A stretch of DNA of 37,004 bases from Kiritimatiellota bacterium (GTDB taxonomy: Bacteria > Verrucomicrobiota > Kiritimatiellia > RFP12 > UBA1067): positions 1 to 37,004 of the forward strand of contig WRJS01000024.1 in NCBI GenBank assembly GCA_009778475.1, in the 5' to 3' direction. The notes under the pieces were generated by a model, which saw only the letters and a list, made by a program, of their open reading frames with translations, was not told the DNA's origin and made no database searches. The position numbers and the translations under genes were made by a program. Positions within the stretch are counted from its first letter, which is position 1. Every line of letters begins with the position of its first letter. Below are positions 1-2,762 of this stretch, piece by piece.

Positions 1-2428
1 GCGTGAAGTCCCCCGGCATGTTGACGAAGGGGTCGAGCGTCAGCAGCCGCCCCGTGTCGGGCACGATGGGCACGAGCCAGCCGCCGGGCAGCTGGCAGAG
101 GCTGCGGAAGACGTTGCCGGTGCCGCCGTGGGCCCCGGTCAGGTTCATGTCCGCGATGAGGTTGCCGCCGATCAGCGTGAAGGCGTTGGTCTGCGCCTCC
201 GTCCCGCCCCCCTGCGTCCACTCGACGACGAGGTGCGCGTCCCACGGCGCGGCGCTCGCGGGCGCGCCGGGGGCGGCGAGCACGTAGATCATCTCCCCCG
301 CGCCGACGGGGGCCCCGGCGGCGAGGGCGTGGTACGCGCCGCTGGCGTCCCTGCGCCTCGGGGCGAGGCGGCTGTCGCAGGAGGTCATCACGGCGGGGGT
401 GCTGTGGTGCGCGGCGTGCGCGGGGCAGGGGCAGCACGCGCCGCCGCCGGGCCCGCCGTGCGGGGGGAAGGCGATCTCGCCCCAGCGGAACTCGCGGTAG
501 CGCGGGAGCGCGCCGCGCTCCACGAAGGTGGCGAACGGCTCGGCCCCCCCCGCGCCGCCGCCGGGCTCGGGCGGCGGCTCATGGGCGTGCGGGCAGGTGT
601 GGCAGCCGGTCCACCAGACCCCGCAGCGGGCGCAGTACCCCTCCGTCGCGCCGGTCTCGGGCGGGGCGTTGGTGGAGGGCCCGGGGCGCGCGCAGTACCA
701 CACGGGGCAGCTGTTGGAGACGGCCGCGGGCCAGCCGCCGGGCGTGAACGCCACGGTGGCCGTGGAGGGCCAGTTGGTCTCCCAGCCCGCGCTCCTCGGC
801 AGCAGGGCGGGGTTGTTCGTGACGCGCAGGTCCCCGTAGGCCCACACGAACTCACCCTCGAACGCGGGCGTGACCTCCGCCTCGGCGGGGTGGGCGTCCG
901 GCGAGTGGAAGCAGACGTGGCCCTGCGGTATGGTGACCCTCGGGACGCCCGCAAGCCCCCACAGCCCCGGGATCCAGTATTCCGCCTCCCAGAAGAACGG
1001 CGGGCCCTCGGGCGGGCCGCCGCCGCCGCGCGTCGGGGGGGACTGCTGGATGAGCACGCAGGGGTCGTCGGAGGTGATGGTCAGGTCCAGCCCGCCGAGC
1101 GCCCAGCCGGGGGTGACGGTGATTGTGCCGCTGCCGTCGCGGGGCAGCCACACGTCCCATGACCCCGCCTCGCGCAGGAGCACGCGCCGCGCGGAGGGCC
1201 CGTCGCCGAAACGCAGCACCGCGCCGGGGTGCGCCACCGCAGTGCCCAGCGTGACCGTCACCATGTGCCAGTCGTACGACCCGTCCGCGTGCGGCTGCGG
1301 GAAATCGTTCCCGTCGTTCGGGTCCGTGCCGAACAGGTGGATCTCCATCCAGTCCGGCCAGCCGTCGTTGTCGCTGTCGAGCGTGAGGTCGCACGTGAGC
1401 GGGAGCTTGTTGATGATCTTGAAAAGCCGGTCCGGATCCCCGCCCGCGTACGGCAGGAACAGGTTATCGTCATCCCCGTTGACCGCGCCGTCGAGGTCAT
1501 GATCAGGGTCGAAGGGAGATATCCCGAGCATGGCGGCGTCCCCGTTGAGGACGCCGTCGTCATTCCAGTCCTCGTCCGGCGGGATGTACGCCTCCACGGG
1601 GATGCCCCAGATGCGTTTTTTCGCGTCGCTGATGCCGTCGCCCGAGCTTGACCGCTGGCTCGCGACCGAAAAAAAAGCTTTGCTCCCGTCCCACCCCGGC
1701 AGGCAGGCGAGGTCCGCGAACGTCACGGTAATCGTGCAGTTCGTGTAATCGTGCGCACCGGTGTGCGGCGGGCGGACCGTCCCGACGAGCTTCCACCCCG
1801 GCCCCGGCCGCGTCAGCTTGGCGGACGCGAAAATGTCGAACGCCCGCCCCGTGCCGTCCAGGTAGGCGGCGAGCCACGCCACGTCCAGGAGGAAACCGCC
1901 AACCCACGGGCGGATGGCCGTGATCATGACGGGGTTCTCTTCGGAGAGCTCCACGCCCCCGCGCAACGGCGCCGCGCCGCCACGCCACGCGCCCGGCGGC
2001 GCGAAAACGGCATCGCGCCAGACCGACCCCGGCAGCACATGCCAGTGATACAGGGCCGCCAGCCAGACGGCCTTCTGGTAGTCCAGCAGCGCGAGCTCCG
2101 CCGCCGCCTCCTCCAGATGCTCAGGCGAGTGGATGCCGCCGGCCGCGTAACCGAAGAACACCGCCTCGGCCGCCGCGTTGCCCTGCTGCTGGCCCTGCGC
2201 CGCCAGCGGCAGCGCCAGCAGCGGCAGCAGCGCGGCCGCCAGCGCGGCCACGCCGGGAGCCCTTCCGGGAGCGCATTTGCCGGGAGCGCAGGGCTTCTGC
2301 CCTGCCAAATGATAGATGCAGGGCGGAAGCCCTGCGCTCCCGGCGTTGCAGGGCGGAAGCCCTGCGCTCCCGGCAAACCTCGCGCTCCCGGCAAACAACC
2401 GATATACGTTCTTACGCATTGAGACCAT
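1..2428 (-). CDS. Large secreted protein with calcium-binding Asp/Asn motifs (partial, 3' end beyond the window)
   Basis: An open frame runs without a stop from ATG 2428 (or ATG 2419, three codons later) off the left edge, giving at least 809 codons. After a basic start (MRKNVYR) come about 50 Gly/Pro/Cys-rich residues encoded by repeat DNA. Then follows a hydrophobic stretch (VAALAAALLPLLALPLAAQG) that looks like the core and cleavage region of a signal peptide. Further in are Asp/Asn motifs of the dockerin or thrombospondin type-3 kind: DWNDDGVLNGDA, DPDHDLDGAVNGDDD and DSDNDGWPDWMEIHLFGTDP. These motifs are known to bind calcium and are common in large surface or secreted proteins of PVC bacteria. 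A Cys-rich patch (CARCGVWWTGCHTCPH) lies further downstream. No enzymatic domain is recognisable in the visible part. An in-frame GTG at 2251 could be an alternative start, but it would leave a signal peptide without positive charges. There is no clear ribosome binding site. The exact role is unknown. Confidence 0.85.
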   Translation of the reverse strand, partial: MVSMRKNVYRLFAGSARFAGSAGLPPCNAGSAGLPPCIYHLAGQKPCAPGKCAPGRAPGVAALAAALLPLLALPLAAQGQQQGNAAAEAVFFGYAAGGIHSPEHLEEAAAELALLDYQKAVWLAALYHWHVLPGSVWRDAVFAPPGAWRGGAAPLRGGVELSEENPVMITAIRPWVGGFLLDVAWLAAYLDGTGRAFDIFASAKLTRPGPGWKLVGTVRPPHTGAHDYTNCTITVTFADLACLPGWDGSKAFFSVASQRSSSGDGISDAKKRIWGIPVEAYIPPDEDWNDDGVLNGDAAMLGISPFDPDHDLDGAVNGDDDNLFLPYAGGDPDRLFKIINKLPLTCDLTLDSDNDGWPDWMEIHLFGTDPNDGNDFPQPHADGSYDWHMVTVTLGTAVAHPGAVLRFGDGPSARRVLLREAGSWDVWLPRDGSGTITVTPGWALGGLDLTITSDDPCVLIQQSPPTRGGGGPPEGPPFFWEAEYWIPGLWGLAGVPRVTIPQGHVCFHSPDAHPAEAEVTPAFEGEFVWAYGDLRVTNNPALLPRSAGWETNWPSTATVAFTPGGWPAAVSNSCPVWYCARPGPSTNAPPETGATEGYCARCGVWWTGCHTCPHAHEPPPEPGGGAGGAEPFATFVERGALPRYREFRWGEIAFPPHGGPGGGACCPCPAHAAHHSTPAVMTSCDSRLAPRRRDASGAYHALAAGAPVGAGEMIYVLAAPGAPASAAPWDAHLVVEWTQGGGTEAQTNAFTLIGGNLIADMNLTGAHGGTGNVFRSLCQLPGGWLVPIVPDTGRLLTLDPFVNMPGDFT
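2261..2393. repeat. REP-like palindromic repeat cluster inside the 5' end of the secreted protein gene
   Basis: The 27-bp unit is a 7-bp stem (GCAGGGC, loop GGAA, GCCCTGC) followed by a GCTCCCGGC tail. Two identical full copies lie in plus orientation at 2318-2344 and 2348-2374. One inverted copy with a single mismatch is at 2279-2305. Partial tails flank them at about 2264-2273 and 2382-2392. In the frame of the overlapping gene each plus copy reads as AGSAGLPPC, so the array lengthens the N-terminus without breaking the frame. A further full copy lies at 2855-2881. Confidence 0.85.
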
Positions 2429-2527
2429 TGTAGCAGGGAACGCCCCCGCGCGCAACCACAACTTCGACCTCATTTCCATACTCCCTCCCTTTCCTTTCAT
2501 CCCGCCCCTCGGCGGCGTCGCCCCGAC

Positions 2528-2556
2528 AAAAAAGACTCCCAATTAAATCGAGAGTC
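2528..2556 (-). terminator. Intrinsic terminator of the structured RNA
   Basis: On the minus strand GACTCTC (2556-2550) pairs with GGGAGTC (2540-2534) across a 9-nt AT-rich loop, with one T-G wobble. Six T residues (2533-2528) follow immediately. This is a classical rho-independent arrangement on this strand only. Confidence 0.75.
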
Positions 2557-2726
2557 GGGAAGGTCACAATTCACAACGATATGAATCCGTCACTTTCGGG
2601 CTCCGGTCGGGAGACCTTTTGTATGATAACGGTTTCCCGACCTGCATCGGGACTTTGCTAGCCAATCGTTGCGGGCTGTGACACCCTACTCTCTAACCAT
2701 GTCCACCTGCCCCTATCTCTAGGGAC
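2528..2726 (-). ncRNA. Structured RNA with its own promoter and terminator: free ncRNA (6S-like shape) or terminator-type leader of the downstream gene
   Basis: The segment folds into one long interrupted hairpin. Its helices pair 2688-2693 with 2550-2555 (6 bp), 2677-2682 with 2563-2568 (6 bp), 2665-2671 with 2574-2580 (7 bp), and 2631-2642 with 2605-2616 (12 bp, one A-C mismatch on this strand) around a 14-nt loop. On the minus strand it is preceded by a good promoter (2734-2762) and ends in an intrinsic terminator (2528-2556). The overall shape, a rod with a wide internal bubble and a total of about 200 nt, resembles 6S RNA. I could not match the conserved 6S sequence, nor SRP, RNase P or tmRNA hallmarks. 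The 5' arm of the terminator is also the 3' strand of the outer helix, so the two structures exclude each other, as in riboswitches. The secreted protein gene starts about 100 nt downstream. The 12-bp helix would be G-U paired on the plus strand, so strand choice rests on promoter and terminator. Confidence 0.6.
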
Positions 2727-2733
2727 GCGCAAC

Positions 2734-2762
2734 AGGATACACCAAACCCCCGCCCCGCGCAA
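2734..2762 (-). promoter_or_regulatory. Sigma70-type promoter of the structured RNA
   Basis: On the minus strand, -35 TTGCGC (2762-2757), a 17-bp spacer and -10 TATCCT (2739-2734). The predicted start is near 2727-2726, just before a small CCCTA/TAGGG hairpin. Confidence 0.5.

Follow-up and report, generated by a model that had tools for sequence, protein, structure and literature searches.

A candidate orphan riboswitch-like transcription attenuator upstream of apparently secreted protein genes in one genus of gut Kiritimatiellota

Results

Organization of the locus

The window analyzed here is a stretch of 37,004 nucleotides from a Kiritimatiellota bacterium (contig WRJS01000024.1). An RNA element of ~200 nt is found on the minus strand at 2729-2528 and occurs in gut bacteria of this phylum. 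It is followed by a gene (1-2479, minus strand) that begins at an ATG at 2479 behind GGAAAGGGAGGGAG and runs off the contig. The ATG lies about 50 nt after the T-run of the element, not about 100 nt downstream as a preliminary description of the locus had it. The gene product is large and apparently secreted with DxDxD calcium-binding-like repeats, and no database match was found for it (Pfam, NCBIfam) or for the products of its paralogues.

A sigma-70-like promoter is located at 2762-2734 on the minus strand, with TTGCGC at 2762-2757 and TATCCT at 2739-2734 separated by 17 nt, and transcription is expected to start near 2728. The sequence and position agree with the preliminary description, although the score falls below the scanner's threshold. 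A promoter-like sequence occurs at the equivalent place in all nine full copies of the element described below, the best being TTGACC/TATAAT in copy C265 of the second species, G001. In 9/9 copies, a start codon preceded by a purine-rich ribosome-binding site lies 38-61 nt past the terminator arm, and the element thus occupies the 5' leader of a gene, the location of riboswitches, in every copy. Inspection revealed a small hairpin between the terminator and the ribosome-binding site (2515-2502, minus strand) that has counterparts in both G001 copies and none in C45.

Copies and distribution

Several copies in the window's own genome were first seen by nucleotide search, a multicopy nature that the preliminary description had missed. 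A covariance model (R1) built from eight copies was used for the copy search and gave seven full copies in this genome (C24, which is the window, C123, C15, C171, C33, C174, and C45). The model also gave a copy truncated at a contig end (C102) and a 3' half that has decayed (C3). G001, a termite-gut Kiritimatiellota metagenome-assembled genome from a second species of the same genus, has two full copies on contigs C265 and C104 and a weak, decayed 5' remnant on C217. An exact core pattern run across 84,980 species genomes returned a single record, WRML01000265 ("Kiritimatiellaeota bacterium isolate Th196P3bin76"), which is this sister species. In the isolate name, Th196 stands for the termite Termes hospes and P3 for a compartment of the hindgut (PMC7024585).

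No convincing homologue outside the genus was found among 162 order, 41 family, and 388 phylum genomes, where searches spanning more than 40 genomes ran with stricter filters that could miss weak homologues. A weak match in G212 (E 0.004, search of 388 genomes) lacks most of the helices P2 and P3 and was taken as chance. Pattern matches in IMG/VR received no support from the covariance model, blastn with the element found no match in phages and plasmids, and viral-contig scans with two proteins, alaS and the S8 peptidase, returned nothing useful. On present evidence, the RNA family is restricted to one genus.

Six close paralogue copies have flanks of about 70-90 bp in common, and contigs break there. 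The C45 and G001 copies have the RNA alone in common and their flanks differ. On C24, C123, C15, C33, C174, C102, and C139, the contig stops in the RNA, a short way past it, or in a downstream gene. This points to a large set of near-identical paralogues too similar for the assembly to resolve.

Downstream genes

The two G001 copies precede an S8 peptidase gene with BACON domains and a C10 peptidase gene with a choice-of-anchor Q domain. The two peptidases have an 87-residue C-terminal region in common at 83% identity and are otherwise different. This region (L055 and L056; TETQTTPVPVPYWWLD...WESYVAGLDPTN) may be a sorting or anchoring domain. Downstream of the C45 copy is a gene for a small protein whose start resembles a signal peptide. 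The visible downstream genes apparently encode secreted proteins, as judged by eye from hydrophobic N-terminal segments. Because the products are of different types (S8 peptidase, C10 peptidase, and uncharacterized secreted proteins), conservation of the RNA is not a mere consequence of gene duplication.

Covariation supports a conserved fold

The single-sequence fold of 2520-2770 is better than that of shuffled sequence (z = -3.1). Pairing was counted in A5, a structure-fitted alignment of the nine full copies. The consensus of hairpin H0 and helices P1-P5 is paired in 96.2% of cells in A5, a value that the fitting to a related model favors somewhat, and pairing falls to 35-49% when the partners are offset by one to three columns. 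Changes on both sides were found at 12 base pairs in 31 cells, a cell count that overstates the independent events, since close paralogues with common flanks make up six of the nine copies. None of 500 shuffles reached the covariation score. The nine copies contain 29 G-U cells and 2 A-C cells, and this excess of G-U pairs identifies the minus strand as the RNA strand. The covariation-backed secondary structure, a general property of riboswitches, bears out the preliminary description of a structured RNA on this strand. Minimum-energy folds of single copies recovered P2-P3 together with at least the inner part of P1 in eight of nine cases, and in the ninth (G001 C265), P1 folds when the 3' arm of the terminator is omitted. 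Long invariant stretches lie outside the paired regions, as in aptamers.

The RNA begins with H0 (2726-2709), a 7-bp 5' hairpin that the preliminary description did not contain. It is paired in 95% of cells with two pairs changed on both sides, and its tetraloop is always GNRA or GNRA-like (GAGA in the window; GUGA, GCGA, and GAAA in other copies). The 5' strand of P1, the antiterminator (GAGAGU-A-GGG, 2693-2684), pairs with CCC-G-ACUCUC at 2559-2550. P2 is formed by GUCACA (2682-2677) and UGUGAC (2568-2563), and 3/6 of its pairs covary on both sides in the nine-copy comparison; a hand-made pair table also covers this helix. P3 joins GCAACGAU (2672-2665) to AUCGUUGU (2580-2573). In the hand-made table, prepared from unaligned sequences, 7/7 tabulated P3 pairs had compensatory changes and none was broken (stems GCAACGA/UCGUUGU, GUAUACC/GGUAUAU, AUAGAGU/GCUCUAU, GACAAAA/UUUUGUU, GUAGAAC/GUUCUAU, and CAGAUAA/UUAUCUG), in agreement with the A5 result and nine-copy covariation. 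Between copies (C171, C33, C174, C123, C15, and the window), the two P3 arms are swapped as a pair, whereas the invariant interior and flanks follow their own lineage. This pattern suggests either gene conversion or coordinated changes that arose repeatedly in the RNA.

Two helices stand on top of this stack. P4 (CCCGA-loop-UCGGG, 2651-2636) is paired in 100% of cells. The invariant 3' arm, GUCGGGAA, is complementary to another invariant stretch, UUCCCGAC, which lies just before and overlaps the terminator, and this sequence complementarity may make the alternative pairing a third player in the switch. P5 pairs CCGUUA (2632-2627), which is followed by the conserved internal loop UCAUACAAAAG, with UGACGG (2592-2587), which is preceded by a conserved GAAAG. 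It is 100% paired with one both-side change in the nine-copy comparison. P6 (2613-2601) is a hairpin of variable size and sequence, as seen by inspection of the nine copies.

Of the four nested helices proposed previously, the outer (6 bp), second (6 bp), and third (7-8 bp) have compensatory changes and were retained. The innermost 12-bp helix (GGUCGGGAAACC with GGUCUCCCGACC) pairs strongly in the window copy and its close paralogues; it was rejected as a general feature, being nearly absent in C45 and one G001 copy, and P4 (CCCGA/UCGGG) and P5 (CCGUUA/UGACGG) are kept in its place in 9/9 copies. A candidate pseudoknot, GUUAG:CUAAC, was dropped on inspection because it is broken in G001 C104, which extends P1.

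P1 competes with the terminator

The intrinsic terminator is a 7-bp hairpin (GACUCUC/GGGAGUC, 2556-2534) followed by a tract of six T (2533-2528), as previously described. Its stem is paired in 100% of cells. The segment ACUCUC at 2555-2550 belongs to both the outer helix and the 5' arm of the terminator, which also matches the earlier account exactly. CUCUC (2554-2550) can pair with upstream sequence to form P1 or with downstream sequence to form the terminator, and both pairings are conserved. P1 and the terminator each keep pairing with one compensatory pair, and covariation within the terminator itself is weak. In G001 C265, a C-to-U change in CUCUC is met by a G-to-A change in P1 and is tolerated as U-G in the terminator; another C-to-U change, in C45 and C265, is met by G-to-A in the terminator. 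When the P1 or terminator state was forced, the energy gap was at most 1.7 kcal/mol in 8/9 copies and 3.6 kcal/mol in the ninth.

The RNA therefore has alternative helices that would control a terminator, the arrangement of a riboswitch expression platform, with a weak or missing T-run in 2/9 copies. Intrinsic termination is not universal in the family because the T-run is absent in G001 C104 and poor in C45. These two copies may have lost termination or may act differently. Since P1 is the antiterminator, stabilization of the domain should turn the gene on, and the switch probably operates in the ON direction.

Comparison with known RNAs

Rfam 15 covariance models gave no match in the window at the gathering threshold, and relaxed thresholds applied to the window and five further loci gave chance-level matches alone. 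The element had been described as belonging to no known RNA family, and the Rfam search agrees. The T-box leader family model did not match, and the element is not a T-box member. No riboswitch paper mentioning Kiritimatiellota was found in a literature search.

The element resembles transcriptional ON riboswitches, for example of the adenine type, in having a P1-type helix mutually exclusive with an intrinsic terminator and, upstream, a compact conserved domain whose junction and loop bases are invariant, placed in cis before the regulated gene. It differs in having no sequence or covariance match to any Rfam riboswitch and in occurring in one genus only. Termite-flg (RF01729) and Termite-leu (RF01730) are RNA motifs known only from termite hindgut (PMC2864571). 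These structured RNAs share a kind of habitat with the sister genome and were submitted to Rfam; neither matched the element in the Rfam scan.

The EAR-type processive antitermination leaders of exopolysaccharide operons are also structured leaders of genes for exported products. They act on distant terminators, whereas the element overlaps its own adjacent terminator, and the element has no Rfam match.

Discussion

The data are best read as a candidate orphan riboswitch-like transcription attenuator, probably of the ON type. The element is a cis leader, not a 6S RNA or a free small RNA. The RNA family is genuine and new, and of an established kind: a cis-regulatory attenuator and orphan riboswitch candidate. 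We consider it likely that the RNA is the 5' leader of the 2479-1 (minus strand) mRNA and that the family acts through transcription attenuation with the switch and regulon proposed here. RNA polymerase would start near 2728 and produce a folded domain in which the GNRA hairpin is followed by stacked P1-P2-P3, with P4 and P5-P6 on top. If the emerging CUCUC pairs back, P1 would close as the antiterminator, allowing read-through and turning the gene ON; if it pairs forward, the terminator would form and the gene would be OFF. Because the two states have nearly the same free energy, a stabilizer of the domain would tip the balance to ON. The stabilizer would most likely be a small molecule that binds at the conserved P3/P4/P5 junction and the P5/P6 internal loop. 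The same switch precedes several unrelated secreted-protein genes as a multicopy set and thereby makes up a small regulon. The chances are about even that this is a new riboswitch class, found in one genus of gut Kiritimatiellota, in which sensing of a small molecule or second messenger switches on a regulon comprising genes for secreted proteases and surface proteins.

The effector of a real attenuator could instead be a protein, such as an antiterminator or RNA-binding regulator, or a trans-acting RNA. Either would give identical anatomy and covariation, and the regulon comprises secreted proteins and not one metabolic pathway. BglG/SacY-type antiterminators bind short hairpins, however, and the element is larger and more elaborate than such targets with several invariant loops, which leaves this alternative rather unlikely. 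Spread of a repeat or mobile DNA element with common flanks and no regulatory function would account for the 70-90 bp shared by the six close copies, the contig breaks at these sites, and the decayed fragments (C3 and G001 C217). It is nevertheless highly improbable: the compensatory substitutions and G-U asymmetry in the aligned copies require selection on the RNA fold, the G001 and C45 copies share the RNA and not the flanks, and placement before a gene is constant.

The preliminary description left the choice between an independent noncoding RNA and an ON-type leader. A complete promoter-terminator unit of about 200 nt present in multiple copies could be a small RNA that ends at its own terminator and is expressed independently of the gene. 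The distance to the start codon in 9/9 copies leaves no room for a promoter between them, the terminator is degraded in two copies that keep the fold, and P1 competes with the terminator. These features make a separate small RNA very doubtful, and covariation, strand asymmetry, competition, and position uphold the leader; its ON direction is our inference. The length of about 200 nt and the long stem had also suggested a 6S-like rod, here considered as a 6S RNA or 6S-like RNA polymerase decoy (RF00013, RF01685). The likeness ends with the elongated shape: no match to RF00013 or any 6S family was obtained at E values up to 10 for the window and up to 5 for other copies, seven copies lie in cis before genes, and the top is multi-branched with no single central bubble. 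The chance that it is a 6S RNA is negligible. The cis-acting attenuator remains our preferred reading.

The family adds a well-supported orphan RNA to a phylum without a riboswitch paper in the literature searched, and its two-state design is readable from sequence alone. It links a candidate sensor to secreted proteins of gut symbionts, two of them proteases, and the trigger of the switch could point to a signal that operates in the termite hindgut.

Two further loci, C139 (L053, about 1118-1200) and C181 (L052, 43-125), contain a paralogous protein start and the whole RNA is missing. The RNA was apparently lost between GGGGCGGG repeats, which would make these loci natural switch-less versions. 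A REP-like palindrome, GCAGGGCGGAAGCCCTGC (with CTCCCGGC), occurs in the window at 2318-2335, 2348-2365, and 2855-2872 and also in C139, C171, and C181. Besides sites between genes, it is found in frame within the part of the leader-controlled genes that encodes the N-terminal region, and there its translation gives AGSAGLPPCNAG-like repeats.
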